64,000 nt of DNA from Sulfuritalea sp. (GTDB taxonomy: Bacteria; Pseudomonadota; Gammaproteobacteria; Burkholderiales; Rhodocyclaceae): positions 1 through 64,000 of the forward strand of contig JALHPU010000016.1 of NCBI GenBank assembly GCA_022842325.1, written 5' to 3'. Below are positions 5,138 to 57,173 of the stretch, piece after piece. Under the pieces are notes generated by a model. The model was not told the DNA's origin, did not search any database, and saw only the letters and a list, made by a program, of their open reading frames with translations. The position numbers and the translations under genes were made by a program. Positions within the stretch are counted from its first letter, which is position 1. The number at the start of each line of letters is the position of its first letter.

Positions 5138-5138
5138 A

Positions 5139-7688: not shown

Positions 7689-7703
7689 GGTCAATCCAGA
7701 GGC

Positions 7704-7740: not shown

Positions 7741-7748
7741 CATGGATC

Positions 7749-36610: not shown

Positions 36611-39407
<2,797 letters not shown>

Positions 39408-39411
<4 letters not shown>

Positions 39412-40313: not shown

Positions 40314-40353
40314 TGTCGAACGGTATGCGTCGCCAGGCAAGCTCGGCAAACCT

Positions 40354-40369
40354 GTTACCGACAGGTAAC
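40354..40369. promoter_or_regulatory. Palindromic activator site, ArxR candidate (UAS1)
   Basis: GTTACC-GACA-GGTAAC is a perfect 6-4-6 palindrome about 100 bases upstream of the arxB' sigma-54 promoter, a normal enhancer distance. A related site lies at 41656. Confidence 0.65.
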
Positions 40370-40455
40370 GATCGCCGTCGCCGCAAATCGAGGCACACCA
40401 ATGCGATCCCGGCTTTGGTTAGTAACAACGCGGGTAGCCAGCTTTTCTCCGCTGC

Positions 40456-40471
40456 TGGCGCGCTTGTTGCA
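40456..40471 (+). promoter_or_regulatory. Sigma-54 promoter of arxB'
   Basis: TGGCGCGCTTGTTGCA matches the -24/-12 consensus TGGCAC-N5-TTGCA at all but one position. It is 187 bases before the arxB' start. Confidence 0.75.
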
Positions 40472-40657
40472 TTACTCCGGCCTGCGGTGTGAATTGCACT
40501 CCCGAGCGCGCCGCGACGATCGTTCTCTACGAGGGGAATGTTGGCCCGCCTCCGGCGACCCCCTGCTTGGGGCGGGCAGTTTTTTGCGGGCAGGCCAGCG
40601 CCGGGCGATTGCCGCGGAGGAATAGAGCGAGCGGAGGGTAAGGAGATACACGTCGTT

Positions 40658-41854
40658 ATGAGTCCGAGCAAGGCTCCTTTGGAGCTCAAGTACCTGCCGC
40701 TGCGCAGCAATCATCCGCTCGGCCTGCAGGAAGACGCCTGCATGCCGCTGCGCGCGCCGCGCTATGCGACCTGTCGGGCCTGCGAAGACATCTGCCCGGT
40801 GCAGGCGCTGCACGTCGAAGAGACCGTGATTCAGCTGCAGGACCAGTGCGTGCGCTGCGGTCGTTGCGCTGCAGCATGCCCGATGGGCGCCCTCGGCCAG
40901 CCCGGTTTTTCGGTTCCCGAGGTGTCGCGCAAGGAGACCCGGCCGCTGAGCGTCGACTGCTGGAAGGTTCCCGCAAAACTTACCCCCGACGAATCGCTGC
41001 GCGTACCTTGCCTGGGCGGCCTCAGTCCAGGGCGGATCCTTGAACTGGTAGCGGCGGCAGGGCCGCGCGCCGTCGAACTGCTCGATCGCGGCTGGTGCGC
41101 TACCTGCGGTGCCGGTGGTGCCGGGGAGCATCCCGCGGCCGTTAACCTGGCACTCGCGCGGACCCTGCTCGAAGCCGCCGGATCGGGCGCGGATCGCCTG
41201 CCGCGACTGCGTATACTGCACCTGCCCGCCGATCTGATGCCGGCAGAGATTCCGCCACCGGTCAGCGAAAACAAAATGTCGCGACGCAGCTTTTTCAGCG
41301 CGCTGACCGCCAAGGCCACCGTCGCGGTAGATCAGTTGCGGCCGCTGCCCGAGGCGGAAACCCGGCGTCGGCGCGGCTTCGAGCGGGAACCGGTGCCATC
41401 GCGGGAAAGGCAGCGCGTGCTGTTCGCCATGGAACGGATTGCCCAGTCCGCCTGGCTGGCACCGCCGCCCGGCCTGTTTCAGCGCGTCGAAGTTTCGGCG
41501 GACTGCAGCAACCACCAACTCTGCGCCAGCATCTGTCCCACCGGGGCGCTGGCGGTGTTCGAGCAGGGCAGTCGCAGCGAACTGATGTTCGATACCCAGT
41601 TGTGCATCGGCTGCAGCGAATGCCGTGCGATCTGCCCGTCCGGCGCCTTGAGCCTATTACCAAACGGTTACGCCGCAAGTGGCGAAACGTTACCGGATCG
41701 CCCCATTCGCCTGACCTCGTTCGGCGAAAGGAGCTGCCCGGAATGCGGCCAGAGCTACACCGACAGCAACGACGCAGACCTTTGCCCACAGTGCGAAAAG
41801 CGCCGCAACCTGGCGAGTTCGGCCTTTCAATCCCTGTTCGGATCGCGCGGCTAA
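40658..41854 (+). CDS. arxB': Multi-cluster ferredoxin-like protein ArxB'
   Basis: A 398-residue iron-sulfur protein without an obvious signal peptide at the chosen start. Two pairs of [4Fe-4S] motifs are present: CRACEDICP with CVRCGRCAAACP in the N-terminal third, CSNHQLCASICP with CIGCSECRAICP in the C-terminal third, plus a zinc-ribbon-like end (CPECGQ, CPQC). A twin-arginine-like MSRRSFFSAL appears mid-protein. It precedes arxA and has its own sigma-54 promoter. Its exact role is unknown; a ferredoxin at this place is characteristic of arx clusters. Its start has a rather distant AGGAG. Confidence 0.8.
   Translation: MSPSKAPLELKYLPLRSNHPLGLQEDACMPLRAPRYATCRACEDICPVQALHVEETVIQLQDQCVRCGRCAAACPMGALGQPGFSVPEVSRKETRPLSVDCWKVPAKLTPDESLRVPCLGGLSPGRILELVAAAGPRAVELLDRGWCATCGAGGAGEHPAAVNLALARTLLEAAGSGADRLPRLRILHLPADLMPAEIPPPVSENKMSRRSFFSALTAKATVAVDQLRPLPEAETRRRRGFEREPVPSRERQRVLFAMERIAQSAWLAPPPGLFQRVEVSADCSNHQLCASICPTGALAVFEQGSRSELMFDTQLCIGCSECRAICPSGALSLLPNGYAASGETLPDRPIRLTSFGERSCPECGQSYTDSNDADLCPQCEKRRNLASSAFQSLFGSRG
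41656..41671. promoter_or_regulatory. Palindrome-like activator site inside arxB' (UAS2)
   Basis: ATTACC-AAAC-GGTTAC is close to the palindrome at 40354 and lies about 200 bases before the sigma-54 promoter of arxA, inside the arxB' coding sequence. A further half site, CGTTACC, follows at 41688. Both are candidate ArxR enhancers. Confidence 0.55.
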
Positions 41855-41862
41855 AACCATCC

Positions 41863-41878
41863 TGGCACGAGGGTTGCA
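41863..41878 (+). promoter_or_regulatory. Sigma-54 promoter of arxABC
   Basis: TGGCACGAGGGTTGCA is a perfect -24/-12 element (TGGCACG-N4-TTGCA). It lies in the 89-base spacer between arxB' and arxA, so arxA has its own regulated promoter. Confidence 0.9.
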
Positions 41879-41943
41879 GAGGAGACCCTGCTTTTGTGCT
41901 TCGGATCAGCCGGGGCATTCGACAATAACGAGGAGGATGTGGA

Positions 41944-44442
41944 ATGAATATCCTGAAATCAAAGGTATCCCGGCGCCGCTTCCTGCAGGCCACCGGAACG
42001 GCAGGTGCGGCGGGTGCGGTAGGTCTGGGCGCAAGCCAGCTGGACGGCTTCTCCACCCTGTCCAAGGCGCATGCGGCGGCCGAGCCGTCGTCGTCGGCCA
42101 CAGTGGTCACCAAGAGCATCTGCGCCCAGTGCCCCGCGCGCTGCGGCATCGACGTCTACACCACCAACGGCAAGGTGCATGCGATCTACGGCAGCAACGA
42201 TCACCCGATCGCCAACGGCAAGCTCTGCCCGAAGGGCCACCTCGGCACCTACATGCTGTATGACGCAGACCGCTTCAAGGGTCCGATGAAGCGCACCAAC
42301 CCGCAGAAGGGTCGCGACCAGGATCCGAAGTTCGCCCCGATCTCCTGGGACGAGGCCTACAAGATCGTCGCCGACCGCCTGAATGCCTTGCGCGACAAGG
42401 GCGAATCCCACCGCTTCGGCTTGTTCTTCGGCCGCGGCTGGGGCGCTTCCGACGTCGGCGTGAACATCGTTCCGATGGGCGAACTCTACGGCTCGCCCAA
42501 TGTGCCGATCGGTCACTCCTCGATCTGCTCCGACGGTTCGGTGCTGGCCAAGCAATGCACCGACGGCAACGCCTCGTACAGTTCCTACGACTACGCCCAC
42601 GCCAATGCGCTGTTCATGTTCGGCGCAAACTACCTCGAAGCGTTCCGTCCCTACAACAACAACATGCAGCAGTGGGGCTACATGCGCGGCGTCAAGACGC
42701 CGAAGACGCATGTCATCGCCGTCGACATCCACATGAACCAGACGCTGTCCGCTTCGGACCGCGCCATGATCATCAAGCCGGGCACCGACGGCGCGCTGGC
42801 GCTGGCCGTGGCCCACGTGATCCTGACCGAAGGCCTGTGGGAAAAATCCTTCGTCGGCGATTTCAAGGACGGCGTAAACAAGTTCAAGGCCGGCGAAAAA
42901 CTCGACGAAAAGGACTTCAATGAAAAGTGGGTCAAGGGCCTGATCCAGTGGTGGAACACCGAGCTCAAGGACCGCTCGCCGAAGTGGGCGGAAAGCATTA
43001 CCACCCTCTCTGCAGAGTCGATCACCGCCGCGGCGCGTGAATTCGGTTCGACCCGTCCCGCCATCGCGCTGTTCGAGCGCGGTGCCCACAACCATTCCAA
43101 CGGCGTGCTGAACGGCATGGCGATTCACTCCCTGAACGCCCTGGTTGGCTCGCTGTTCGCCGAGGGCGGTCTGGCCTATCAGATGGGCCCCGCCTACGGT
43201 CCGTCACCCGCCGACCCCAAGGATTTCAAGGACGACTACGCCAACAACGGACCGTGGAAGAAGGCCAAGCGCATCGACCTCAAGGGCGACGAGTCCGGCT
43301 ATCTGCTGGCCAAGAACATGATCCAGGAAGTGGGCAAGAACCACCTTTCCGGTGCCGCCGGCTACAAGCTCGACACCGCGCTGTTCTACATGACCAATCC
43401 GGTGTTCTCCACCGCCAACGCGGCCAAGGAATGGGAGGAGGCGGTGAAGAGCATGTTCGTCATCGACACCTCGCCCTTCCCCAGCGAGATCGCGATGATG
43501 GCCGACCTGATCCTGCCCGACAATACCTACCTCGAGCGCTTCCAGGACGCGCCGACCTACCCCTTCCAGGGCTGGCCGCTGGCGCAGTTGCGCGTTCCCG
43601 CCGTCAAGCCGGTGTATGACACCAAGACCTTCGCCGACGTGCTGATCCAGATCGGCAGCCGCATCAAGGGGCCGACGGGCGAGTACTACAAGAAACTGGT
43701 GAGCGCCGAAAACATCGTGCGCCACATGGCCAAGGGCTTCGAAGCCAATCCGGGCGACAACGGCGTCAAGGACTTCGATTCCTGGGCCAAGAAGGGCGTC
43801 TGGTACAAGAAGCCCTATCACTGGCGCCAGGTGCGCGGCGAGTTCTTCGAGTGGGACGGCAAGGGCTGGAACAAGCCGATGAAGGCCGACGAGGTCAAGG
43901 CCAAGCTGCTGAAGACCGACTCCGGCAAGTTCGAGTTCGTCTCCTCCTACATGGAACACAAGAAGGACTGGATCCTCAAGACCACCGGGCGTTCGCCGGA
44001 GAAGTACAACATGCCCCACTATGAGGAGCCGAAGTACACCGGCGGCGGCGACCTGCACTTCATCACGCCGAAGACCGCGATGCATGCCGAAGGCCGTACG
44101 GCGAATACTCCGCACGCGATTGCGCTGTTCCAGCCGACTGTCGGCGGCAAGACGCAGGCGGTGGCCGAGGTGCATCCGAGCGTGGCTGCGGCCAAGGGCT
44201 TCAAGAACGGCGACCGCATCAAGATCAAGTCGTCCGCCGGCGAAATCTTCGCGATTGCCCGCGTCACCGAACTCACCCGACCCGATACGGTCGTGCTGCC
44301 CTTCGAGCACGGGCACTGGGCCTGGGGTCGCTGGGCCAAAGGCCGCGGTTCCAATCCCGATGAGATTCTGGTTCAGCAATCCGATCGCATTTCCGGCATG
44401 CAGAACTTCTACACCGGAAAAGTCACGGTCGAGCGCGCCTGA
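41944..44442 (+). CDS. arxA: Anaerobic arsenite oxidase catalytic subunit ArxA
   Basis: An 832-residue Tat-exported (SRRRFLQATG) molybdopterin enzyme. Cys60, Cys63, Cys67 and Cys95 hold the [4Fe-4S] cluster; Cys195 in HSSICSDGS is the expected molybdenum ligand. The decisive mark is LFFGRGWGASD (residues ~160-170): an XGRGWG motif is described for ArxA, whereas respiratory arsenate reductase ArrA has RGRY there. It oxidises arsenite to arsenate and passes electrons through ArxB and ArxC to quinone, typically with nitrate as acceptor. Related PsrA, PhsA and TtrA enzymes were considered and fit less well. Confidence 0.9.
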   Translation: MNILKSKVSRRRFLQATGTAGAAGAVGLGASQLDGFSTLSKAHAAAEPSSSATVVTKSICAQCPARCGIDVYTTNGKVHAIYGSNDHPIANGKLCPKGHLGTYMLYDADRFKGPMKRTNPQKGRDQDPKFAPISWDEAYKIVADRLNALRDKGESHRFGLFFGRGWGASDVGVNIVPMGELYGSPNVPIGHSSICSDGSVLAKQCTDGNASYSSYDYAHANALFMFGANYLEAFRPYNNNMQQWGYMRGVKTPKTHVIAVDIHMNQTLSASDRAMIIKPGTDGALALAVAHVILTEGLWEKSFVGDFKDGVNKFKAGEKLDEKDFNEKWVKGLIQWWNTELKDRSPKWAESITTLSAESITAAAREFGSTRPAIALFERGAHNHSNGVLNGMAIHSLNALVGSLFAEGGLAYQMGPAYGPSPADPKDFKDDYANNGPWKKAKRIDLKGDESGYLLAKNMIQEVGKNHLSGAAGYKLDTALFYMTNPVFSTANAAKEWEEAVKSMFVIDTSPFPSEIAMMADLILPDNTYLERFQDAPTYPFQGWPLAQLRVPAVKPVYDTKTFADVLIQIGSRIKGPTGEYYKKLVSAENIVRHMAKGFEANPGDNGVKDFDSWAKKGVWYKKPYHWRQVRGEFFEWDGKGWNKPMKADEVKAKLLKTDSGKFEFVSSYMEHKKDWILKTTGRSPEKYNMPHYEEPKYTGGGDLHFITPKTAMHAEGRTANTPHAIALFQPTVGGKTQAVAEVHPSVAAAKGFKNGDRIKIKSSAGEIFAIARVTELTRPDTVVLPFEHGHWAWGRWAKGRGSNPDEILVQQSDRISGMQNFYTGKVTVERA

Positions 44443-44472
44443 CGCGCCCCTAACGAACGAGGAGAATGAGAA

Positions 44473-45216
44473 ATGGCTAAATGGGGAATGGTTATCGACC
44501 TGGACAAGTGCACCGGGTGCCAGGCATGCAGCACCGCCTGCCAGATGGAAAACAACCGCCTGCCCGGCGAGAACTACCAGGACGTCCTGTATTACACCGA
44601 AGGCAAGCAGCCGACTCCCGTGCTGAAGTGGTTCCCGCGGCCCTGCATGCAGTGCGAGGAGCCCTCGTGCATGCATGTCTGCCCGACCAAGGCGACCTAC
44701 AAGACCGAGGATGGCGTGGTGCTGATCGACTGGAACAAGTGCATCGGCTGCAAGTACTGCATGATCGCCTGCCCGTACGGCGTGCGCTTCTACACCGACT
44801 CGAAGCCGCTGATCGAGCCGAACCTGAAGGAGGTATTCAAGGGCGAGGGCGACCTCTCCTGGAACCCGCCCTACAAGGGGCCGCAGCAGGACAACACCAA
44901 GGGCATCGGCATCCAGCCGCACGGCGTGGTCTCGAAGTGCACCTTCTGCTACCACAAGATCAGCAAGGCGCCCAAGGGCATCGCCGACTTGTCCAACGAC
45001 GATGCGGCCAATCGCGAATACGTCCCGGCCTGCGTGCGCACCTGCGCGCCAACGGCACGTTTCTTCGGCGATCTGGACAACCCGAAATCCAATGTCAGCC
45101 GGATGATTTCCGACAAGAACGGCTCGCGCCTGCTGGAGCATACCGGCAACAAGCCCCAGGTCTATTACTTGAGCGGCGGCGTGGTTCCCGGTTTCAGCCG
45201 TCCCAAGCAATCCTGA
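44473..45216 (+). CDS. arxB: Arsenite oxidase iron-sulfur subunit ArxB
   Basis: A 247-residue four-cluster ferredoxin subunit of the DMSO-reductase family: CTGCQACSTACQ, CMQCEEPSCMHVCP, CIGCKYCMIACP and the split motif CTFCYHK...CVRTCAPT. It carries electrons from ArxA to the membrane subunit ArxC. No signal peptide is present, which is normal because it is exported with ArxA as a complex. It lies 30 bases after arxA with ribosome site GAGGAGAATGAG, and 23 bases before arxC. Confidence 0.93.
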   Translation: MAKWGMVIDLDKCTGCQACSTACQMENNRLPGENYQDVLYYTEGKQPTPVLKWFPRPCMQCEEPSCMHVCPTKATYKTEDGVVLIDWNKCIGCKYCMIACPYGVRFYTDSKPLIEPNLKEVFKGEGDLSWNPPYKGPQQDNTKGIGIQPHGVVSKCTFCYHKISKAPKGIADLSNDDAANREYVPACVRTCAPTARFFGDLDNPKSNVSRMISDKNGSRLLEHTGNKPQVYYLSGGVVPGFSRPKQS

Positions 45217-45239
45217 CCTGACGCAAAGGAGATATAGAC

Positions 45240-46403
45240 ATGAGTATCAATTCTCAAGCCATGGAAAGCCCGTTGAGCGTATCGCGCATATCCAATCTGC
45301 GGCTCGTCGTCGGAGTCGTCGGCCTGGTGCTCGGCATGGTCGCCGCAATGGCGCTGCTCAGCGGCGGTCACGCCACGTTCAACACCAGCAGCACGCTGGT
45401 GTGGGGTCTGCCGGTATCGAGCTACGTGTTCTTCGTTCTGACCTCGACCGGCCTCACCTTCGTCGCCTCGCTGGCGATGGTGTTCGGCATGAAGGACTTC
45501 TATCCGATCGCGAAACGCTGCGTCTGGGGAGCCCTGATCACGCTGATCATCGGCTTCATTTCGCTGGGGCTGGAAATCGGCAATCCGCTGCGCATGCTTT
45601 GGGCGATCCCGACCAACATGGCGGTGACTTCGCCGCTGTGGTGGATGGGACTGTTCTACCTCGCCTACATGGTGCTGCTGATCGGCAAGTTCCTGCTGAT
45701 CAACAAGGGTGACTGGGACAGTTCGCAAAGCCGCATGATCGGTGTCGCCTCGCTGATCGCCGTGATCATCGCCCACGCCACGCTGGGTTCGGTGTTCGGC
45801 ATGATGGGCATGCGTCCGTTCTGGTATGGCCCGATGGTGCCGGTGTACTTCCTGATCACGGCCTTCCTCTCCGGCCTGGCCTTCATCATGCTCTTCATCA
45901 ATCTGGACTACGGCGTGGATCAGGCCAACATGTCGGACGGAGCGCGCAAGGCGATGAGCCAGCATGTGCCGACCATCTTCGCCATCGTGCTCGGCCTGGT
46001 GATCGTGTTCACCATCGCCAAGACGGCGACCGGACTGTGGACCAACATGACGGAAGTCAAGGTCCCGACCGTCCATCAGGTCTCCTCGCTGCTGTTCAAC
46101 TTCGAGCTGTGGATCGGCATGGTGCTGCCCTTCTTCCTGATGCTGAGCGCCAAGCGCAGCGATGCCATGGTGCAGGTCATCGCCGGCGGCCTGGTCATCG
46201 TCGCCCTGTTCATCGGTCGCTATGAGTATGTGGTCGGCGGCCAGCTGGTGCCCCTGTTCAAGGGCTCCTGGGAGCAGGACCTGATTGCCTACACACCCTC
46301 GATGACTGAAATCGGCATCGTGGTGCTGGCGGTTTCCATCGGCATCCTGCTGTACGCCTTCGGCGACAAGAAGCTGAGCCTGTCGGCCACGCCGAACCAG
46401 TAA
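45240..46403 (+). CDS. arxC: NrfD-family membrane subunit ArxC
   Basis: A 387-residue protein with ten membrane segments in the NrfD/PsrC pattern, including LPVSSYVFFVLTSTGLTF and HATLGSVFGMMGMRPFWYGPMVPVYFL. NrfD-type subunits exchange electrons with the quinone pool without haem. Here it would reduce quinone with electrons from arsenite. It begins 23 bases after arxB with AAAGGAGATATAGAC and is followed by a hairpin terminator before arxD. Confidence 0.93.
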   Translation: MSINSQAMESPLSVSRISNLRLVVGVVGLVLGMVAAMALLSGGHATFNTSSTLVWGLPVSSYVFFVLTSTGLTFVASLAMVFGMKDFYPIAKRCVWGALITLIIGFISLGLEIGNPLRMLWAIPTNMAVTSPLWWMGLFYLAYMVLLIGKFLLINKGDWDSSQSRMIGVASLIAVIIAHATLGSVFGMMGMRPFWYGPMVPVYFLITAFLSGLAFIMLFINLDYGVDQANMSDGARKAMSQHVPTIFAIVLGLVIVFTIAKTATGLWTNMTEVKVPTVHQVSSLLFNFELWIGMVLPFFLMLSAKRSDAMVQVIAGGLVIVALFIGRYEYVVGGQLVPLFKGSWEQDLIAYTPSMTEIGIVVLAVSIGILLYAFGDKKLSLSATPNQ

Positions 46404-46434
46404 GTCACGTTTGCTGCCTGGAGAGACAGCGTGT

Positions 46435-46461
46435 CGGCGGGGCCTGGCCCCGCCGATTTTT
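46435..46461 (+). terminator. Terminator between arxC and arxD
   Basis: CGGCGGGGCC (46435-46444) pairs with GGCCCCGCCG (46446-46455) and is followed by ATTTTTC, an efficient terminator shape. It would reduce arxD expression relative to arxABC. Confidence 0.8.
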
Positions 46462-46478
46462 CTCATAAGAGGATCACA

Positions 46479-47348
46479 ATGACCGACATGAGCGATTCCC
46501 TGATGCCAACGCTGTTGCATGAGCGCGCCGATTTCTACCTGATGCTGGCGCAGGCCTTTCTGGCGCCGATGGAGCCGGTGCATTACGCGGCCATGACCGA
46601 CATGCTGGCCGACGATCTGGCCGAGATCGACGCTTCCCTGGAATACGGCATCGGGGCCCAGATCGATGCGCTGCGCGCAGCCATGTCCAGGCTGTCGTCG
46701 CATGAGGAATTGCTTGTGGAATACAGCCAGATGTTCCTGCAGCCGCCGCGCGAGGCAGTGCTGAATGTCTGCTTCCCGCTGGATGGCGCCATGATGGGCG
46801 GCACGGTCACGGAGATCGAGGACTTCTACCGCCATTACGGCGTCGAGCGCGGCGATCATTTCAAGGATCTGCCGGACCATGTCTCGGTGCAGCTGGAATT
46901 CATCTCTTATCTTTACGGCCGGGCGGCCGCAGGCATCGGCGAAGGTGAGCCGGACGGCGAGGCAGAGAAGGCCGCCGGGCATTTCCTGCACCAGTTCGTC
47001 AGTCGCTGGCTTCCCCATCTCGAACTCGGCATCGAAAAGGCCGGGCGCAAGCTCACGCTCAAAGCCAATCCCTGGCTGCCGCTGGTGCGGGTTCTTTCGC
47101 TCGCCACGGCGCGCGACGCCGCAGCCAATCCGGACTGGGTCAAGCCGCAGAAGCGCGTCGATGCGGCAATGGAGAAGGCGCGCCAGGACTACGCCAGCAA
47201 GGGAATCACGGCCGAGGCCATGGCCGAGATCGAGCGCAAGTTGCGCGAAAAGGGGCTCAGTACCGATCATCTGCAAGTGGCTCCGGCTCAGCGCAATGCA
47301 GCTTTGGGCCTGAGCGCCAAGCAGCCACCCGATACGCGGCGCAAGTAG
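46479..47348 (+). CDS. arxD: TorD/DmsD-family chaperone ArxD
   Basis: A 289-residue cytoplasmic all-helical chaperone. The TorD-family marks are ERADFYLMLAQAFLAP at the start, SSHEELLVEYSQMFLQPPRE, DFYRHYGVERGDHFKDLPDHVSVQLEFISYLYGRAA, and LPHLELGIEKAG. It should bind the Tat signal of ArxA during cofactor insertion. The tail after residue ~215 (charged, with KARQDYASKGITAEAMAEIERKL) is longer than usual. The start at 46479 is preferred over 46431, since the latter would overlap the terminator hairpin. Confidence 0.88.
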   Translation: MTDMSDSLMPTLLHERADFYLMLAQAFLAPMEPVHYAAMTDMLADDLAEIDASLEYGIGAQIDALRAAMSRLSSHEELLVEYSQMFLQPPREAVLNVCFPLDGAMMGGTVTEIEDFYRHYGVERGDHFKDLPDHVSVQLEFISYLYGRAAAGIGEGEPDGEAEKAAGHFLHQFVSRWLPHLELGIEKAGRKLTLKANPWLPLVRVLSLATARDAAANPDWVKPQKRVDAAMEKARQDYASKGITAEAMAEIERKLREKGLSTDHLQVAPAQRNAALGLSAKQPPDTRRK

Positions 47349-48793: not shown

Positions 48794-49555
48794 ATGGCAC
48801 CACCCCCGCTCGCCTCGCGCGAGGCAGTACGCGAAGAACGCTTCAACGATGTCTGGACCAATGAACTCAACGACGCGTTTGCCGACATCGCGCGCTATTA
48901 CGACCGTGCCAACGAAATTGCGGCGCTCGGTCTCTGGAGCACTTTCCTCAAGCGCTTCATGCAGACCGTGGACATCAAGCCGCAGCAGAAGGTGCTCGAC
49001 GTCTGCGCCGGCACCAACGCCATCGGCGTCGCATTACTCAAGCGCGAACCGACGCTGGACGTGCATGCCATGGACCGCAGCGCCGAGATGCAGACTGTGG
49101 GCGCGCAGAACGCCGCCGCCCTGGGCTTCCAGATCAAGAGCACGATCGGCGACGTGCATGTGCTGCCGTTTCCGGACAACCATTTCGACGTCGTCACGCT
49201 GCAGTTCGCCTCGCGCCACCTGCGCGTGCGCGACGTGTTCACCGAGATTCTGCGCGTGCTCAAGCCCGGCGGCCACTTCCATCATTCCGACATGCTGCGT
49301 CCGCGCAACGTGATCGTGAAGAACCTGTATTTCACCTATCTCAAGGCCTGCCTGAATTTCACCAGCCTGATCGTCGGCAGCAGTCCTGCGGCGACCAAGT
49401 TCAAGCAGTATTTCATCGATGCGCTGGACCTGTTCTATACCGCCGAGGAACTGTCGATCGTGCTGCGCGAGCTGGGCTACGTCGAGGTCAGCGTGGACAC
49501 GGTATTCCACGGCATGATCGGTTTCCATCGTGCGGTCAAGCCCGCAAAGGCCTGA
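48794..49555 (+). CDS. UbiE/MenG-like SAM-dependent methyltransferase
   Basis: A 253-residue class I methyltransferase. Motif I is KVLDVCAGTNAIGVALL, followed by GDVHVLPFPDNHFDVVTLQFASRHL and LKPGGHFHHSDM. The arrangement resembles UbiE/MenG and menaquinone-8 methyltransferases (MenK/MqnK), which modify the quinone ring. Other possible substrates cannot be ruled out. Between the arx and EET loci, a low-potential methylated menaquinone would be useful, but this is inference. It has its own promoter. Confidence 0.78.
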   Translation: MAPPPLASREAVREERFNDVWTNELNDAFADIARYYDRANEIAALGLWSTFLKRFMQTVDIKPQQKVLDVCAGTNAIGVALLKREPTLDVHAMDRSAEMQTVGAQNAAALGFQIKSTIGDVHVLPFPDNHFDVVTLQFASRHLRVRDVFTEILRVLKPGGHFHHSDMLRPRNVIVKNLYFTYLKACLNFTSLIVGSSPAATKFKQYFIDALDLFYTAEELSIVLRELGYVEVSVDTVFHGMIGFHRAVKPAKA

Positions 49556-49597: not shown

Positions 49598-49611
49598 TTG
49601 ATGTTAATCAA
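49598..49611. promoter_or_regulatory. FNR-type box before the first EET cytochrome
   Basis: TTGATGTTAATCAA is a perfect TTGAT-N4-ATCAA palindrome, 69 bases before the ATG at 49681. It suggests induction without oxygen. Confidence 0.8.
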
Positions 49612-49680
49612 GCGCGGGAATCGTTTTTGCAGCAAGCTCCGCGCCCAGAAGTTCTCCCAAACATTTACCGGAGCGTTCTC

Positions 49681-50025
49681 ATGAAAACCAAGACCACCCT
49701 GTTGCTTACCGGAACACTGTTCTTCGCCTTGGCTGGCCTGGCCCCCGTCCATGCCGCCGTTGATGCCGACGCCGCTCAAAAACTGGCGAAGAAGAACGAC
49801 TGCTTCAAGTGTCATGCCATCGACAAGACCAAGAAGGGTCCTTCCTACAAGAAGATATCCGCCAAGTTCAAGGAAAAGAAACTCGGTGAGAAGGATGCCA
49901 TCAAGCAAATGACCATGGGCTACAAGGTCAAGCTCGAGGACGGCACCGAGGAAGAGCACAAGATCATCGAAACCAAGGATCCGAAAGAGTTGAGCAACCT
50001 TGCCCAATGGATCCTGTCGCACTGA
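49681..50025 (+). CDS. Small class I cytochrome c (MtoD-like), copy 1
   Basis: A 114-residue periplasmic cytochrome with a signal peptide (cleavage after VHA), one motif NDCFKCHAIDKTKKGPSYKKIS and a C-terminal helix SNLAQWILSH. It is Lys-rich. It resembles small monohaem cytochromes such as MtoD that shuttle electrons across the periplasm in iron-oxidising bacteria. A paralogue lies at 52295, after the CbcL-like gene, and the two share KNDCFKCHAIDKTKK-type sequences. The gene follows an FNR-type box and ends at a terminator. Confidence 0.88.
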   Translation: MKTKTTLLLTGTLFFALAGLAPVHAAVDADAAQKLAKKNDCFKCHAIDKTKKGPSYKKISAKFKEKKLGEKDAIKQMTMGYKVKLEDGTEEEHKIIETKDPKELSNLAQWILSH

Positions 50026-50036
50026 TCTGACACCAC

Positions 50037-50072
50037 CCGCCGGGGCCTGTTCATCAGGCCCCGGCGGCGTTT
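50037..50072 (+). terminator. Terminator after cytochrome copy 1
   Basis: Perfect 13-base arms CCGCCGGGGCCTG (50037-50049) and CAGGCCCCGGCGG (50055-50067) with a 5-base loop, followed by CGTTTT. Confidence 0.88.
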
Positions 50073-50135
50073 TCCGGTGCAGTCGTTTGCGGGTGAGCCG
50101 GATAGAAGAATAACGAGTAGCGGGGAATGTGAATC

Positions 50136-52187
50136 ATGTGTATCAGTCAGTTTGCGGCGTGGATGGCGGCAGCAACGGTCTATGTGGCCGTAACTCTGGG
50201 CAGCGGCCCGGTGCTCGCAGCTCCCGCCAGGGAAGCGGCTCCTGCCGCAGCCGCGGTCAAGCTCGACAACGCCACCTGCCAGACTTGCCACGACGGCAAG
50301 AAGGGCAAGCTGGAAATGCTCGGCAGCAATGGCGAGAAGCGCCCGGTGCAGCCCGTCGTCCCGGACAAATACACCACGAGCGTGCACGCGAAGATGGATT
50401 GCGTCGCGTGTCACCTCGAAATCACCGACAACGTCTCGCCCCACCAGATCGCCAAGGGCGTCAAGAAGGCCGAATGCGCGCAGTGCCACCTTGACCTGTG
50501 GGATGAAACCAAAAAGCTCGGCAAGACCGCCGAGAAGCCGCGGCTCGGCATCGTCGCCGACAACGTCGCCGCGTACAAGAAATCCTTCCACGCCAAGCCG
50601 GACAAGGACGATCCGACCAAGCAGATGGCGATCTGCAGCGATTGCCACAACGTGCATACCTTCGATGTGCCTCCGCGCGGCACTCAGGAGCGCAAGGAAT
50701 GGCACCTCACCGTGCCCAATGTCTGCGGTGACAAGTGCCATACCGATCATCTGGAAGAATGGAGCGAATCCATCCACGGCAAGGAGGCAATCGACAAGAA
50801 GAACCTGAAGACGGCCGTCTGTTCCGATTGCCACACCACCCACGACATCATCGGCAGTTCATCCGACAAGGCCAAGCTGGCGATCACCGCCAGTTGCGGC
50901 GACTGCCACCAGGATGCCGAGAAGTCCTACAAGGCCTCCTACCACGGCCAGGTCAACACCCTGGGTTACGCCTATACCGCCAAGTGCTTCGACTGCCATG
51001 GCAGCCACGGCATCGAGCCGTCGAAGGACCCCAAGTCGAAGATGCACGAGAAGAACCGGCTCAAGACCTGCCAGAAGTGTCACAGCGGCAAGGAGGGTAA
51101 GCCGCCTCTGGCTACCCCCGGTTTCCTCAGTTTCAGCCCGCACGGCACCAGCGACAACTTCGCCAAGTATCCCGAAATCTGGATCACGACCAAGTTCATG
51201 GTGGCCCTGCTGATTGGCGTGTTCATCTTCTTCTGGGCGCATTCCATACTCTGGTGGTATCGCGAGTACATGGATCGCAAGCAGGGCGTGCACCATTGGC
51301 ATATCCGTACCGGCGACATTCCTGCTGAACAGCTGCCCTTCGACGACCGTCGGGACGACCTGGCCAAGAAGCATGTGCGGCGCTTCGGACCGATGTGGCG
51401 ATTGGCGCACCTGGCCTTCGCCCTCAGCGTGATGACCCTGGTGCTGACCGGCATGGCGGCGTTCTACCCCGAGACCGGCTGGGCCAAGAGCGTCATGGCT
51501 GGCTTGGGCGGCCCGAGAACCGCCGGGCTGATCCACCGCATCGCCGCCTTCACCATGCTCGGCATCTTCTTCATTCACCTTATCGCGGTGTCGATCAACA
51601 TCCTGCGCAAGTGGAAGGACTTCAAGATCTTCGGCCCGGATTCCTTCGTGCCGAACTGGAAGGACATGTACGACATGATCGGCATGTTCAAGTGGTTCGT
51701 CGGCAAGGGTCCGCGCCCGGCCATCGAGCGCTGGTCCTACTGGGAGAAGTTCGATTACTGGGCGGTGTTCTGGGGTATGGCGATCATCGGCGGCAGCGGC
51801 ATGATGCTGGCGTTCCCGCATATCGTCGCCAATTACCTGCCGGGTTGGGTGTTCAACGTGGCGATGGTGGTGCACGGCGAGGAAGCTTTCCTGGCGGCAG
51901 TGTTCCTGTTCACGGTGCATTTCTTCAACAACCACTTCCGCCCCGACAAGCTGCCACCGCCGGACGTTGTGATGTTTACCGGCACGCAGTCGCTGGACGA
52001 GTTCAAGCACGAGCATGCCGCGCAGTACCAGCGCCTGGTCGAAACCGGTCAGTTGGAGAAGTATCTGGTGGATGCGCCGTCAAAGCCTTTCACGCTGGCT
52101 TCGAAGATACTCGGCCTGACACTGATCGCCTTCGGCCTGGCCTTGCTGGTGATGATCGCCATCGGCTTCTTCGGCGGCGGACACTGA
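50136..52187 (+). CDS. CbcL-like multihaem cytochrome c / cytochrome b fusion
   Basis: A 683-residue fusion. After a signal peptide comes a periplasmic domain (residues ~40-325) with nine haem-binding sites: eight CXXCH motifs (for example CQTCH, CVACH, CAQCH, CFDCH, CQKCH) and one CGDKCH of CX3CH form. A cytochrome b561-like domain with about five membrane helices and conserved histidines follows (ILWWYREYMD, HLAFALSVMTLVLTGMAAF, LIHRIAAFTMLGIFFIHL). The layout matches Geobacter CbcL, a menaquinol dehydrogenase feeding extracellular electron transfer. Here it would replace CymA-type NapC/NirT proteins. Confidence 0.85.
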   Translation: MCISQFAAWMAAATVYVAVTLGSGPVLAAPAREAAPAAAAVKLDNATCQTCHDGKKGKLEMLGSNGEKRPVQPVVPDKYTTSVHAKMDCVACHLEITDNVSPHQIAKGVKKAECAQCHLDLWDETKKLGKTAEKPRLGIVADNVAAYKKSFHAKPDKDDPTKQMAICSDCHNVHTFDVPPRGTQERKEWHLTVPNVCGDKCHTDHLEEWSESIHGKEAIDKKNLKTAVCSDCHTTHDIIGSSSDKAKLAITASCGDCHQDAEKSYKASYHGQVNTLGYAYTAKCFDCHGSHGIEPSKDPKSKMHEKNRLKTCQKCHSGKEGKPPLATPGFLSFSPHGTSDNFAKYPEIWITTKFMVALLIGVFIFFWAHSILWWYREYMDRKQGVHHWHIRTGDIPAEQLPFDDRRDDLAKKHVRRFGPMWRLAHLAFALSVMTLVLTGMAAFYPETGWAKSVMAGLGGPRTAGLIHRIAAFTMLGIFFIHLIAVSINILRKWKDFKIFGPDSFVPNWKDMYDMIGMFKWFVGKGPRPAIERWSYWEKFDYWAVFWGMAIIGGSGMMLAFPHIVANYLPGWVFNVAMVVHGEEAFLAAVFLFTVHFFNNHFRPDKLPPPDVVMFTGTQSLDEFKHEHAAQYQRLVETGQLEKYLVDAPSKPFTLASKILGLTLIAFGLALLVMIAIGFFGGGH

Positions 52188-52294
52188 TGGGGTTCCCGCT
52201 TCGGGGCAGGTGCCCTGAAGCGGGTGGCAGCGCGGTGCTGCGGTGGTTGGGGTGGCCGCGGTGGCTGCGACTTTCGATGGTGAGGCGCAAAGCC

Positions 52295-52636
52295 ATGAAC
52301 AAGATCGGAGCCCAGCTTTTTGCCGGTATGTTTCTTCTGCTTGGTGCTGCCGGCCCGTCACTGGCGCAGGTTGACGCCGATGCCGCTCTGGCGCTGGCGA
52401 AGCGCAATGACTGCTTCAAGTGCCACGCCATCGACAAGACCAAGAAGGCGCCTGCCTACAAGCGGATTGCGGCGCGACTGAGATCGAAGCCGGATGCAGT
52501 CGAGACCATCATCGAGCACATCACCGCGGGGTCCATGGTCGAACTGGAGGACGGCACGGATGCGCAGCACCGTATCGTAGACACCAAAGATCCGGCCGAA
52601 CTTGGCAATCTGGCGCGCTGGATCCTGTCGCTCTGA
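52295..52636 (+). CDS. Small class I cytochrome c (MtoD-like), copy 2
   Basis: A 113-residue exported cytochrome with a signal peptide (cleavage near SLA-QVD), motif RNDCFKCHAIDKTKKAPAYKRI, the acidic segment VELEDGTDAQHRIVDTKDPAEL and end LARWILSL. It is clearly a paralogue of the protein at 49681. It lies about 100 bases behind the CbcL-like gene, which suggests they form one unit: quinol oxidation by the fusion protein, then transfer by this soluble carrier to the outer-membrane conduit. The start at 52295 is chosen because the signal peptide begins there. Confidence 0.88.
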   Translation: MNKIGAQLFAGMFLLLGAAGPSLAQVDADAALALAKRNDCFKCHAIDKTKKAPAYKRIAARLRSKPDAVETIIEHITAGSMVELEDGTDAQHRIVDTKDPAELGNLARWILSL

Positions 52637-52684
52637 ATGCCGCAATACGGCGTCGTCGGATTTTCGAGGGACGCGGCGCGCGGC

Positions 52685-53380
52685 TTATTTCCGGATCAGT
52701 TGATAGCCGGTGCGATGCACCGTCTGTATCGGCGAGCGGCCATCGGCGAGCCTGCCCAGCTTTTTCCTGAGATTGCTGATATGCATGTCCAGGCTGCGGT
52801 CATAACTGGTCAACTCGCGGCCCAGCAGTTTTAACGCCAGCTCGGCCTTTCCCAACGCGCGGCCGGAGTGCTGGAACAGGATATGGAGCAGATCGAATTC
52901 GGTGCTGGTCAGCGGCAGCGGCTTGCCGCGCCACGTCGCGCTGCGATCTGAAACTGAAAGAGTGAGGCTGGTGATTTCGTCGCGCCGCATTCTCTCCGCG
53001 GCGACTGCATGGCGGGTGCGGCGCAGGATGGAATTGAGGCGGGCTACCAGTTCGCGCAGGTTGCACGACTTGGACAGGTAATCGTCGGCACCGAGTTCGA
53101 GGCCGACAATGCGCTCGATGTCGTCAACCGCGGCGGCCAGCATTACCACCGGCAGTTCTCCGTACTGTCGAATTCGCCGCAGCACCTCGATCCCGGTGAT
53201 TCCGGGCAGTGTGTCGTCGAAAATGACGAGATCGTAATCGCCCTCCATCGCCAGCAACAGACCGGCCTCGCCATCATGACAAAGGTCGAGTGCGAAGCCT
53301 TGCGCCTCGAGGTAATCGGACAAGACCCGGCATAGCACCGGGTCGTCATCCACCAGCAGAAGTTTTGGCGTTTGCTTCAT
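52685..53380 (-). CDS. Orphan OmpR-family response regulator
   Basis: A 231-residue regulator with receiver domain (Asp55 in LVIFDDTLPG) and winged-helix DNA-binding domain (SLDMHISNLRKKLGRLADG, IQTVHRTGYQLI). The usual YLxKPF around the conserved lysine reads YLSKSCNLREL, lacking the cis-proline that follows the lysine in active receivers, so its phosphorylation switch may be unusual. There is no kinase gene beside it. It lies between cytochrome copy 2 and mtoA on the opposite strand and probably controls the mto genes through the divergent 525-base spacer. Confidence 0.9.
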   Translation of the reverse strand: MKQTPKLLLVDDDPVLCRVLSDYLEAQGFALDLCHDGEAGLLLAMEGDYDLVIFDDTLPGITGIEVLRRIRQYGELPVVMLAAAVDDIERIVGLELGADDYLSKSCNLRELVARLNSILRRTRHAVAAERMRRDEITSLTLSVSDRSATWRGKPLPLTSTEFDLLHILFQHSGRALGKAELALKLLGRELTSYDRSLDMHISNLRKKLGRLADGRSPIQTVHRTGYQLIRK

Positions 53381-53905
53381 TCAGTAATTCACGCGAACGA
53401 AAAAATCGTGAGGAAATCCGACTGCCCACGGCATCGGAGTGGAGTCGAGTTAACGAGGCCCGCCGCCAGCGATGTTGCGTGCCAACAACTTTCAAAAATT
53501 TACAAGTATTCCTGGTCGGAGAAGCTGAGTATTTGACTCAAGTTAAGGCGCGAAACCTCACGCCATGCGCTGAATTTCGCCTACCGGCCACCGCTGAAAC
53601 AAATTATTACATACCTAACAATCGATTAGGCCTTAGTGGCCAACAGGATGTGCCAATCGAAATCACTATTGATTGAGACATCAGGGCCCGCCCAATTAAC
53701 CATAATTGATTCATTGGTATTTCAATTCTTGGTTCAAAGTAAATATTTGTAAAATTTGCTTTAGATCATATAAATCGAGGGGGGTTCACCGGCGTCAACT
53801 TGCGGGGGATACTCGCCCCTCGATGGAGGTTCTTGTGTGGCACGGTGAGGCAGCTTGCCCCTGTGACAACAGCTCCGACGGCATTGGTTTAAAGGAGAAT
53901 TCCAG
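53381..53905. promoter_or_regulatory. AT-rich control region upstream of mtoA
   Basis: A 525-base spacer with no supported gene. The part 53440-53780 is markedly more AT-rich than the rest of the window. It holds a promoter-like pair TTGTAA (53747-53752) and TATAAA (53769-53774), a partial FNR-like site TTGACTCAAGTTAA (53533-53546) and a stem-loop at 53774-53824. The regulator gene on the other strand starts at its left end. Confidence 0.6.
53774..53824 (+). other. Stem-loop in the mtoA leader
   Basis: Nine-base perfect arms ATCGAGGGG (53774-53782) and CCCCTCGAT (53816-53824) enclose a 33-base loop. It lies at or just after the expected transcription start and ~80 bases before mtoA, so a role in leader control or mRNA stability is possible. 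Confidence 0.5.
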
Positions 53906-54916
53906 ATGCAATTCGCTCGACACGTACTCGCTTTTTGTGCCGTCATCGGCACTCTGGCGGTCGCAACACCACTGCTGGCGGCTACCGATGCGCCTAAGCC
54001 GGCAAAGGCCAACCTCGCCAGCGACCCAAATGCCAAGGACCTGATCCTCAAGGGCGATGCGAAATGTACCGGCTGTCACGACGAGGCCGACGAGCCGACC
54101 GGCGCCGCCACCATGCTCGAACTGAACCCCGGAGTCCTTGCGATTGGCAAGACCAAACACGGCACCAAGGCGGACAGCCGCACGCCGACCTGCACCGATT
54201 GCCACGGCGAAAGCGAAAAGCATCGCGCACACAAGGGCAGCGACAAGCCGCCGAAGGTGGACCTGAGCTTCCGCAAGGACACCAAGGCCGACGCTTCAAC
54301 ACGCAATGATGCCTGCCTGAATTGTCACAAGGGCGGCGAGCGTACCGGCTGGAAGAGCGGCGCGCACGCTCTGCAGGATGTCGCCTGCACCTCCTGTCAC
54401 GATGTCCACAACCGGACTGACAAGGTACGCGTCAAGGCGGTGCAGACCGAAGTCTGTTTCACCTGTCACAAGGAGCAGCGTACGCAGACCAACAAGCCCT
54501 CGCACCATCCGCTCGCGGAAGGAAAGATGTTCTGCTCCTCGTGCCACAACGTGCACGGCAACAATCCCAAGCATCTGGTCAAGCGCAGCACCAACGAAAC
54601 CTGTTATGGCTGCCACATGGAGAAGCGCGGCCCCTTCGTGCATAACCATCAGCCCGTGGCCGAAGATTGCGGCATTTGCCATCAACCGCACGGCACCACC
54701 AATCCGGCCATGCTCAAGACCCGGGTCCCCTTCCTCTGCCAGGACTGCCATTCGCATGACAGTCACCCGGGACAGACTGCCGTCCTGCCGACGGCTGCCA
54801 CCAACTCCACTTCGCTGCTCGGAAGTGTCGGCCGTGGCTGCCTCAACTGCCACACCAATATTCACGGCGGCAACAGCACGGTCAACTCGGCCACGGCTGG
54901 TCGTTTCCGCCGCTGA
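53906..54916 (+). CDS. mtoA: Decahaem periplasmic cytochrome MtoA/MtrA
   Basis: A 336-residue DmsE/MtrA-family cytochrome with a signal peptide (cleavage near LLA-ATD) and ten CXXCH motifs in sequence: CTGCH, CTDCH, CLNCH, CTSCH, CFTCH, CSSCH, CYGCH, CGICH, CQDCH, CLNCH. Such proteins lie inside the MtoB/MtrB barrel and carry electrons across the outer membrane. Length and haem count fit MtoA, PioA and MtrA. Its barrel partner follows 20 bases later. The ribosome site AAAGGAG is 11 bases before the start. Direction (Fe(II) oxidation or metal reduction) is not shown. Confidence 0.93.
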   Translation: MQFARHVLAFCAVIGTLAVATPLLAATDAPKPAKANLASDPNAKDLILKGDAKCTGCHDEADEPTGAATMLELNPGVLAIGKTKHGTKADSRTPTCTDCHGESEKHRAHKGSDKPPKVDLSFRKDTKADASTRNDACLNCHKGGERTGWKSGAHALQDVACTSCHDVHNRTDKVRVKAVQTEVCFTCHKEQRTQTNKPSHHPLAEGKMFCSSCHNVHGNNPKHLVKRSTNETCYGCHMEKRGPFVHNHQPVAEDCGICHQPHGTTNPAMLKTRVPFLCQDCHSHDSHPGQTAVLPTAATNSTSLLGSVGRGCLNCHTNIHGGNSTVNSATAGRFRR

Positions 54917-54936
54917 TCGGGAAGGGGAGAAAAATC

Positions 54937-57099
54937 ATGAAAAAGATGAGCAAAGTATTCAAGCTGAACCTTCTTTCGGCTGCCTTGATTCCGGCCTTCG
55001 GCTCGGCGTTTGCGGCGGATGATGACGTCGCCCAGTTCATCAAGCCGGACAGTACGGTTTCCGTCGGCGTCGGCAACTGGTCGGGTGACCGCCATCAGGC
55101 GGGCATTCTCGATGGCATGCGCAAGAGCGGTTCCCACCTTGGGCTCGATGTGGACGTGGTCAAGCGTGATGACGCGACGGGCACCTGGTTCATGCTGAAG
55201 GGGCAGAACCTTGGCCTCGATACCCGCGAGCTACGTCTCGACTTGCAGCGTCAGGGTGACGTGGGCGGCTATCTGGAGTACAGCAAGATCCCCTACGACA
55301 ATCCTTTCACCTTCAATACGCCATTGCAGGGAATCGGGACGCAGAATCTGGTCGTCGGCACGACTCAGGGCGGTGCGTTTGCCATGCGCGAAGTCAAGAT
55401 CGGACTCGAGCGTGAGCGCTGGAGCCTTGGCGTATTCAAGAAGCTGACGACCGATGTCGATTTCAAATTCGACTTCAAGAACGAAGACAAGAAGGGCACT
55501 CGACAGGCAGGCGGCGGTAGCGCCGGCCTGTTCTCGGTGGAACCCTTCGACAGCACGATTCGCCAGTTCGAGGCCGTTCTGCGTTATACCGGCAAGGAAC
55601 TGCAGCTCTCCGGCGGCTACAACGCCAGCTGGTATGACAATAATATTTCGCTGGTCATGCAGCGCTTGAACGGCATCACCGGAGGCACCAACGCCAGCTT
55701 CAATGCCGTCACGCCGATTTCGGTGGCGCTGAGCAACCAGGCGCACCAGGTCTTCCTCGACGGCGACTACGCCTTCAACCCGACCACGCACGGGACGTTC
55801 AAGCTCGCGTACGGGCGCGCCACCCAGAACGAGCGCTTGCCGACGTTCGATCTTGCGGCACCGAACAATCGCTACTGGAATGCGCCGGACCGTCTGAACG
55901 GCCGGATCGACACCACGCTGGTGCAACTTGGCCTGACAGCGCAACCGATGCCCAAGCTGTCGCTGACCGCCAGCCTGCGCTACAACGATGTCAAGGACAA
56001 AACCCCGGTGGCGCCCTTCGTCGGCACCAACCCGGCCGGCGCTGCGACTGTGTACAACACTCCGCATTCCTACACCACCACGGTGGGCAAGCTGGAGGCT
56101 TCTTATCGCCTGCCGGAGAATTTCAAGCTCACCGGCGGAGTCGATTACTCGACGCAGGACCGTTCGTATCCAATGATCGGCACTCTGTATGTACCGTTCA
56201 GGTCCGAGGTAAACGAAACCACCTACCGGGTGGCTTTGCGCCGCTCCCTGGCCGACGAGCTCAACGGCACGATCTCATTCCTCCACAGCGACAGGGATGG
56301 CTCGGCCTATCGGCCCGCGAACGGCACGCTTCCGTTCTCCAACCAGATCAACCCCCTTCATATCGCAGACCGGACACGTAACAAGTTGCGGTTCGCGCTG
56401 GACTGGGCTCCGCTCAGCCAGCTCGACGTGCAATTCCGCATGGACGAGTCGCGCGACAAGTATCCCGACGAGGGGCGCCCCTACGGTTTGAAGGATGGCC
56501 GCGCGACCCTGTTTGCGGTCGACGCCAGCTATGCGCTGTCGGATGACTGGAAGCTCTCCGCGTGGTATTCCAACGACGTGACCAAGGCGCGGGAAGTCAG
56601 CGCGCGCGCTCCCAATGGCGGCGCTTTGGATGCCGTCAAGGAATCACGTATCAAGGATGTCGGCGATTCCTTGGGCGTCAATCTGCGTGGCATGGTCAGT
56701 GCCAAGCTGCAATTGGGTTTGGGCCTTGACTGGTACCAGACGCTTAGCAGTTATCCGCAGAGCCAAGCCCTGGTAGGAGCTGCCGTGGCTTACCCGGCCG
56801 GTAGTGCGGGTCCGCTGCCCGATGTCAATACCAACATGATCCGCATCAAGTTTGATGGCAAGTATGAGCTCGACAAGGTATCAAGCCTCGGCGTCGATTT
56901 CATCCATGAGCGCTGGCGCAGCAACGATTGGACCTGGAATTACGCCAACGGCTCGCCGTTTACGTACTTCTCGGGTGGCATAACCTGTACCGGATGCTCG
57001 GCAACTCCAGTGGGTGTTGTCGATGGCACGACAGTGACCCGCAAGAGCACTCAGGTCGCCAATTTCATCGGCATACGTTACAACTACAAGTTCCAGTAA
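54937..57099 (+). CDS. mtoB: Outer-membrane beta-barrel MtoB/MtrB/PioB
   Basis: A 720-residue outer-membrane porin of the decahaem-associated MtrB/PioB family. After the signal peptide (cleavage after AFAA) the body alternates amphipathic strands such as DTRELRLDLQRQGDVGGYLEYSKIP and ends in aromatic YNYKFQ, typical of outer-membrane barrels. It sheathes MtoA. The CXXC motif near the mature N-terminus of Shewanella MtrB is absent here; the only cysteine pair, TCTGCSA, is in a late loop near residue 685. No outer-surface cytochrome (MtrC/OmcA) is present next to it. Confidence 0.9.
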   Translation: MKKMSKVFKLNLLSAALIPAFGSAFAADDDVAQFIKPDSTVSVGVGNWSGDRHQAGILDGMRKSGSHLGLDVDVVKRDDATGTWFMLKGQNLGLDTRELRLDLQRQGDVGGYLEYSKIPYDNPFTFNTPLQGIGTQNLVVGTTQGGAFAMREVKIGLERERWSLGVFKKLTTDVDFKFDFKNEDKKGTRQAGGGSAGLFSVEPFDSTIRQFEAVLRYTGKELQLSGGYNASWYDNNISLVMQRLNGITGGTNASFNAVTPISVALSNQAHQVFLDGDYAFNPTTHGTFKLAYGRATQNERLPTFDLAAPNNRYWNAPDRLNGRIDTTLVQLGLTAQPMPKLSLTASLRYNDVKDKTPVAPFVGTNPAGAATVYNTPHSYTTTVGKLEASYRLPENFKLTGGVDYSTQDRSYPMIGTLYVPFRSEVNETTYRVALRRSLADELNGTISFLHSDRDGSAYRPANGTLPFSNQINPLHIADRTRNKLRFALDWAPLSQLDVQFRMDESRDKYPDEGRPYGLKDGRATLFAVDASYALSDDWKLSAWYSNDVTKAREVSARAPNGGALDAVKESRIKDVGDSLGVNLRGMVSAKLQLGLGLDWYQTLSSYPQSQALVGAAVAYPAGSAGPLPDVNTNMIRIKFDGKYELDKVSSLGVDFIHERWRSNDWTWNYANGSPFTYFSGGITCTGCSATPVGVVDGTTVTRKSTQVANFIGIRYNYKFQ

Positions 57100-57139
57100 T
57101 CCGGAGCCGGATTACCGGGCTGGCCCGGGCAGAATAAGA

Positions 57140-57173
57140 AGCGGAACCTGAGCAATCAGGTTCCGCTTTTTTT
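57140..57173 (+). terminator. Terminator of the mtoAB operon
   Basis: Perfect 12-base arms AGCGGAACCTGA (57140-57151) and TCAGGTTCCGCT (57156-57167) with a GCAA loop, followed by at least six Ts. Confidence 0.92.

Follow-up and report, generated by a model that had tools for sequence, protein, structure and literature searches.

A predicted MtoABCD-type electron conduit in a Sulfuritalea genome and the possible exchange of its partners among relatives

Introduction

In MtoABCD systems, the decahaem cytochrome MtoA and the porin MtoB are encoded together with the cytochrome MtoD and with MtoC, a homologue of CbcL. The mtoC gene is clustered with mtoA, mtoB, and mtoD in Dechloromonas aromatica RCB and Gallionella capsiferriformans, and mtrH or mtoC genes from seven species are also clustered with mtrAB or mtoAB (PMC6295460). 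The nonahaem MtoC was named in Gallionella ES-2, as against the tetrahaem CymA in ES-1 (PMC5566968). The key question for MtoC/CbcL proteins is in which direction they run and with which quinone. Here we analyze a locus of this kind in Sulfuritalea sp., within the first 64,000 nucleotides of contig JALHPU010000016.1 (C16). We will call this whole stretch of DNA the window, and all coordinates refer to it unless another contig is named. The genome is 4.89 Mb, with 99.94% completeness and 5.15% contamination.

From its sequence, we identify the locus as an electron conduit of the already published MtoABCD type. We propose that electrons flow inward to ubiquinone and that the conduit is made when oxygen is scarce (rough probability 0.58). 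The original prediction for this DNA had singled out the pairing of MtoAB with a CbcL-like protein in place of CymA; this pairing is not new, as D. aromatica RCB and Gallionella ES-2 are already published examples (PMC6295460, PMC5566968). The locus comes from an MtoC-bearing genome in which ubiquinone seems to be the sole quinone, and in close relatives the same mtoD-mtoC module stands behind an arsenate-reductase-type enzyme. These arsenate-reductase-linked loci, and rquA genes downstream of mtoC, were less expected than the known MtoAB-MtoC pairing.

Results and Discussion

The locus and its parts

From 5' to 3', the locus consists of an FNR box, cyt1, mtoC, cyt2, a response regulator (minus strand), mtoA, mtoB, a stem-loop, and relA/spoT (minus strand; named by eye). 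All of the parts listed in the original prediction are present where it placed them, and the identity of the mto parts is nearly certain. mtoA (53906..54916, plus strand) encodes a DmsE/MtrA-type decahaem cytochrome c with 10 CxxCH motifs (TIGR03508, 252 bits, cut-off 192; E = 5.1e-56 to 6r2q chain A). mtoB (54937..57099, plus strand) encodes an outer-membrane porin of the MtrB/PioB type (PF11854, E = 6.9e-140; TIGR03509, 346 bits, cut-off 240; E = 8.5e-31 to 6r2q chain B). We take 6r2q to be the MtrCAB structure; the molecule name in its listing differs.

The original prediction had also named two small periplasmic cytochromes. These are cyt1 (49681..50025, plus strand, 114 amino acids; PF00034; E = 1.7e-26 to 4XXL) and cyt2 (52295..52636, plus strand, 113 amino acids; E = 3.6e-23 to 4XXL), which are both MtoD-like monohaem class I cytochromes c. 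Both retain a histidine that aligns with the EEEH stretch of MtoD, and this is a candidate for the second haem ligand of MtoD. The haem of MtoD is bis-His (PMC4412085). The gene at 52685..53380 (minus strand) encodes an OmpR-type response regulator (PF00072 and PF00486) and is divergent from mtoA. Because it sits between cyt2 and mtoA, cyt1-mtoC-cyt2 is probably transcribed separately from mtoAB. A 13-bp stem with a 4-base loop (57139..57168), between mtoB and the convergent relA/spoT, may be a terminator; it agrees with the end of the originally predicted locus at 57173.

mtoC (50136..52187, plus strand) encodes a protein of 683 amino acids in which a nonahaem cytochrome c is fused to a b561/FdnI-like membrane domain, as judged from motif counts, alignment, hydropathy, and predicted structure. 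Eight of the c-haem sites are CxxCH and one, at residue 197, is CX3CH (CGDKCH). The count of nine is correct because aligned proteins carry CxxCH at this position (12 of 14 rows; the extra residue is also present in the protein from genome G082 and in Dechloromonas hankyongensis). Every Cys and His of the nine sites is conserved without exception in alignments of 14 and of 32 rows that include the window, and H369, H425, H467, H580, H595, and H600 are invariant across the 32 rows. By a hydropathy scan, the protein has six membrane segments after a signal peptide. Sequence-level matches to solved structures were weak. Structure prediction, which had been proposed as a check, gave an AlphaFold model (predicted local distance difference test score 79.7, predicted template modelling score 0.70) whose membrane domain falls on FdnI, a subunit of formate dehydrogenase N (1kqf_C; Z = 14.1 over 202 residues, 3.0 Å). 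This was the best solved match, followed by HyaC (6g94_A, Z = 9.8). Foldseek with the model found nothing with E under 0.001 (the best match was again 1kqf_C, at 2.4e-3). The protein thus has the traits of the CbcL/MtrH/MtoC family, which are c-type haem sites in the N-terminal part (nine here, in a family range of 3-23), a C-terminal half that usually has six membrane helices, and a HydC/FdnI-like cytochrome b with conserved histidines, and the earlier description of it as CbcL-like, with nine c-haem sites and a b-type domain, holds. We identify the fusion as MtoC, a homologue of CbcL and MtrH. We also considered a cytochrome b linked to formate or thiosulfate. The fold is FdnI-like, but the protein scored 29 bits on TIGR01583 (cut-off 116), and in the window mtoC has no neighboring gene for a formate or thiosulfate subunit, so we rejected this candidate.

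As in the published systems of D. aromatica and Gallionella ES-2, the window encodes a decahaem MtoA, an adjoining porin MtoB, a nonahaem MtoC with a b-type domain, and MtoD-type cytochromes. Unlike them, it has two MtoD-like genes that flank mtoC, a regulator between mtoC and mtoAB, and a perfect FNR box. Its MtoC shares 55-57% identity with the rows from Dechloromonas and Gallionella that we compared, and its MtoA shares 73% with the MtoA of D. hankyongensis (locus L104), where the order MtoD-MtoA-MtoB-MtoC is the published arrangement. Like the window's MtoC, CbcL from Geobacter sulfurreducens is described as having nine c-haem sites, six membrane helices, and a HydC/FdnI-like domain, but as published it is about 35% identical to MtoC proteins (PMC6295460). 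Also, Geobacter uses menaquinone (PMC12307469), which the window's genome apparently lacks. Sideroxydans lithotrophicus ES-1 is similar in its MtoA, MtoB, and MtoD-type shuttle and in having genes for ubiquinone and none for menaquinone, but its inner-membrane partner is the tetrahaem ImoA, which is of the CymA type (PMC13390432).

MtoC had matches at E = 1e-40 or better in 21 of 274 genomes (an even sample of the class; some match one half only), and the closest relative is from a Sulfuritalea metagenome-assembled genome (MAG), at 91% identity (L059). The suggested search for neighborhoods with both MtoAB and a CbcL-type protein was productive: an MtoA-like match was found in 24 of 80 MtoC loci, with flanks of up to 10 kb, and 21 of these 24 had an MtoB match as well. 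Many contigs are cut, so this and our other counts of partners are lower bounds. In an independent Rhodocyclales MAG (L090), the order UbiE-cyt1-MtoC-regulator-MtoA-MtoB-RelA is the same as in the window; there the regulator lies 119 bp from mtoC, which leaves no space for cyt2. Separately, we noticed a cytochrome b near mtoC in L055, L087, L115, and L120; in L055, L087, and L120 there is also a nonahaem cytochrome, and these genes resemble a split MtoC.

The quinone pool

The window's genome has no matches to MqnA/D (PF02621) and no MenD over the cut-off (best 49.7 bits, cut-off 244). One UbiA-family protein is MenA-like but falls below the cut-off (75 of 102 bits). A search with the RquA protein of L082, rather than with the RquA model, reached no more than 29.8 bits, over 126 residues. 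Contamination could add genes but not remove them. Low-potential menaquinol oxidation, which the original prediction cited for Geobacter CbcL, does not fit this genome, as none of MqnA/D, MenD, or RquA was credibly found and the MenA-like protein is below its cut-off. Because we found no genes for an alternative quinone, MtoC probably works with ubiquinone.

We scored MenD and RquA in the genomes of 50 of the 80 MtoC-bearing loci (and MqnA/D in the window's genome alone). MenD was over the cut-off in just three of the 50 (L063, L064, and D. hankyongensis L104), so MtoC proteins are not generally partnered by menaquinone made through MenD. RquA was over the cut-off in 24 of the 50.

A UbiE/MenG-like methyltransferase is encoded 5' of cyt1 (48794-49555), as it is in L060 and L090, and it is below the cut-offs of the families against which it was scored. 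As a candidate enzyme for a low-potential quinone, it scored 108 bits on MpqE (cut-off 335), and the search with the RquA protein did not recover it.

The FNR box

As the original prediction had noted, an FNR-type box precedes the set. The box (TTGATGTTAATCAA, 49598..49611) starts 83 bp 5' of the start codon of cyt1 and fits TTGAT-N4-ATCAA perfectly. There are 12 such places in the genome and none for the pattern read backwards. Other perfect sites lie between hemN and fnr, before ccoN, and before a coxB, and some are within called open reading frames (ORFs). The genome encodes Fnr (NF008365, 252.6 bits, cut-off 228). No sigma-70-type pair was found at the window's box. L090 has a box at an equal distance from cyt1, with one change.

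Upstream of 75 MtoC units, we found five perfect and seven one-mismatch boxes, while two control patterns of the same letters gave 0/0 and 0/2. With two mismatches, the counts were 25 versus 3 and 9 for the controls. (The 75 units were those, among 82 loci, on the plus strand and with 150 bp or more of upstream sequence. Related loci do not count as independent, and the MtoC of L069 dropped out.)

Direction of electron flow

We propose that MtoB would hold the decahaem MtoA across the outer membrane, that the MtoD-like cytochromes would shuttle electrons through the periplasm, and that MtoC would exchange electrons with the quinone pool via its FdnI-like cytochrome b domain. The net flow would start at Fe(II) or some other donor outside the cell and run through MtoAB, the MtoD-like shuttle, and MtoC to ubiquinone. 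The sink would be nitrate, via the NapA that is encoded in the window (1552 bits, cut-off 904), or traces of oxygen, via ccoN, which has an FNR box upstream. Carbon would be fixed through RuBisCO (458 bits in this genome), and the unit would be expressed when oxygen runs low. What the DNA shows directly is the set of parts and the families they belong to, the FNR box, and a gene order shared with an independent genome. A ubiquinone pool, expression at low oxygen, and inward flow are the most likely interpretation of these, with the direction drawn from genomic context. (The nitrate reductase gene lies within 5040-9538, where it is followed by 4Fe-4S proteins of the NapG/NapH type, as judged by eye.)

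Several points weigh against inward flow to ubiquinone. The direction is taken from context only, and an FNR box would suit anaerobic outward respiration equally well. Relatives of this MtoC that are linked to ArrA-type enzymes would run from quinol to acceptor. The genome has an orphan MenA-like prenyltransferase gene (L142, contig C33, 4371-5219). The second shuttle, cyt2, is not a fixed part of the unit.

The alternative that survives best, although we consider it unlikely, is that, under anoxia, MtoC oxidises ubiquinol and MtoAB hands the electrons on to acceptors outside the cell, such as Fe(III) minerals or humics. This would fit the FNR boxes at the window's unit and at other MtoC units, as well as the ArrA-linked relatives. 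The MtoC homologue of R. ferrireducens, MtrH, sits in the cluster of an Fe(III) reducer (PMC6295460). Outward flow is harder to reconcile with the lack of any low-potential quinone gene that we could find in this genome, or with the lack of an MtrC-like protein adjoining mtoAB (none was seen there, and no genome-wide search for MtrC-like cytochromes was made). Ubiquinol is a poor electron donor to mineral Fe(III). We take this, and the potentials of quinones, arsenate, and iron minerals, as general background.

MtoC beside arsenate-reductase-type enzymes

In four loci (L055, L056, L057, and L088), cytD-mtoC directly follows genes for an Fe-S protein, a TorD-like protein, and a molybdenum protein, the last being an ORF of 851-963 amino acids that carries the RGRY motif. 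A fifth locus, L058, starts inside the Fe-S gene, whose product is 95% identical to that of L055 over the 182 residues present; this locus shares its relA flank with the window but has no mtoAB there. The motif of ArrA is (R/K)GRY and that of ArxA is XGRGWG (PMC6549141). We scored the molybdenum and Fe-S proteins of L055 only. They are ArrA- and ArrB-like by sequence but below the NCBI cut-offs: the former scored 969 bits against the model for ArrA (cut-off 1600), with E = 3.5e-256 to the solved ArrA, and the latter 219 bits against that for ArrB (cut-off 450). We found no MtoAB within 10 kb on either side in L055, L056, or L057; L058 and L088 extend only about 2 kb downstream, and other contigs were not searched. 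L088 has a perfect FNR box and L055-L058 have none within 300 bp.

CymA serves Arr in Shewanella, and the mtoD-mtoC of these loci might do likewise. Among the open-licence PubMed Central (PMC) papers searched, we found none that links an arsenate respiratory reductase with CbcL.

In a careful tree of MtoC (31 rows), the window's clade holds together as eight rows with support of 100/100. This clade mixes members linked to MtoAB (the window and L090), to Arr (L055-L058), and to NapC (L060). L056 and L060 are from one MAG. L088 lies in a distant part of the first tree that we made, from which L069 dropped out. L059, the nearest relative of the window's MtoC, ends at the end of its contig. The mixing depends on one fork, with support of 90/95, that places L057 with L090, the window, and L059. 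Forcing the four Arr-linked rows together was worse by 19.8 log units (p = 0.037 by the approximately unbiased test, which is indicative only, as we defined this group with the first tree already in hand). The 23 labelled rows require four changes between Arr and Mto. From these mixed rows, and from the rquA genes described below, MtoD-MtoC has the look of a quinone module that can be joined to different partners. More broadly, it is possible, at somewhat less than even odds, that mtoD-mtoC is a self-contained and often FNR-controlled quinone module that was swapped between MtoAB and ArrAB-type partners within Sterolibacteriaceae and their kin and is co-encoded with rquA in comamonads, so that the partner and the quinone, not MtoC, set the direction.

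MtoD-MtoC could also be a two-way hub that runs in the direction imposed by its partner, be it MtoAB, Arr, or another, with both uptake and release in the window's strain. Partners appear to be exchanged among close relatives, no feature was found that separates the oxidase from the reductase forms (PMC6295460), and there has been similar speculation for ImoA (PMC13390432). Neighborhood is not proof of coupling, however, and we consider two-way use in this strain improbable, more so than purely outward flow. The cultured Sulfuritalea hydrogenivorans sk43H contains arrAB and its arsenate respiration has been demonstrated (PMC6397845). If arrAB precedes mtoD-mtoC in sk43H, then the direction of MtoC could be tested by deleting one gene.

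It is very improbable that the mto unit carries electrons from arsenite as part of the upstream arx-type arsenite-oxidase cluster: the end of this cluster is 2.3 kb 5' of cyt1, but it has its own NrfD-type membrane subunit, binding protein, and kinase, and in L090 the arx molybdenum and Fe-S genes are on the opposite strand, about 6 kb from cyt1. The window's own molybdenum enzyme has the motif GRGWG. We rejected it as the partner of MtoC because it is ArxA-like and comes with an NrfD subunit of its own. The arx-type cluster (37954-47348) includes a histidine kinase and a phosphonate-type binding protein (ArxX-like) on the minus strand, a ferredoxin-type protein (possibly ArxB2), and genes for the ArxA-like enzyme and for Fe-S, NrfD, and TorD proteins.

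We also observed that in L067, L083, L085, L091, L102, and L112, a dihaem protein of one family precedes the mtoC unit and may be another partner. In L067, this protein matches the ethylbenzene-dehydrogenase domain PF09459.

rquA downstream of mtoC

The gene directly 3' of mtoC in L082 encodes RquA (NF038261, 310 bits, cut-off 175). L084 and L101 also have a gene of this family immediately following mtoC, and in L070, L072, L073, L076, and L113 such a gene is found 3-7 kb beyond mtoC. In all, rquA is downstream of mtoC in 8 of the 80 loci, and seven of the eight are in one comamonad-type clade. Among the open-licence PMC papers searched, we found none that joins rhodoquinone, rquA, and extracellular electron transfer. 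In L070, L072, L073, and L076, a gene for an Fe-S protein like that of succinate/fumarate dehydrogenase (by eye) lies between mtoC and rquA.

We considered whether rquA predicts the direction of flow. RquA was over the cut-off for 8 of 10 MtrC-bearing loci, for 5 of 15 MtoAB loci without MtrC (including the window), and for 1 of 5 Arr-linked loci. (The genome of L069, with 166 of 175 bits, was scored as a no.) Fisher's test gave p = 0.041, but with shared ancestry there are four independent pairs and p is 0.5-1, so we did not use rquA as evidence.

Other decahaem clusters in the genome

The original prediction had MtoC standing in for CymA. This is correct at the mto locus but not genome-wide, as contig C7 has a second decahaem cluster (L035, C7:8000-26000) with a tetrahaem protein of the NapC/CymA type, alongside regulator and kinase genes (by eye) and a monohaem cytochrome. 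By sequence, this genome appears to carry both kinds of inner-membrane partner. The tetrahaem protein is of the NapC/NirT type (TIGR02161, 283 bits, below the cut-off of 311), and the decahaem protein is also below its cut-off (TIGR03508, 176 of 192 bits). A protein of 718 amino acids is at the porin position and is not MtrB by TIGR03509. Contig C36 has a further decahaem-MtrB pair with both scores above the cut-offs (TIGR03508, 239 bits; TIGR03509, 347 bits).

The kinase gene on contig C7 contains a perfect FNR box. On contig C5 (L037, C5:86000-104000), a 24-haem protein of 1016 amino acids is encoded beside separate 8-haem, 7-haem, and cytochrome-b-like genes.

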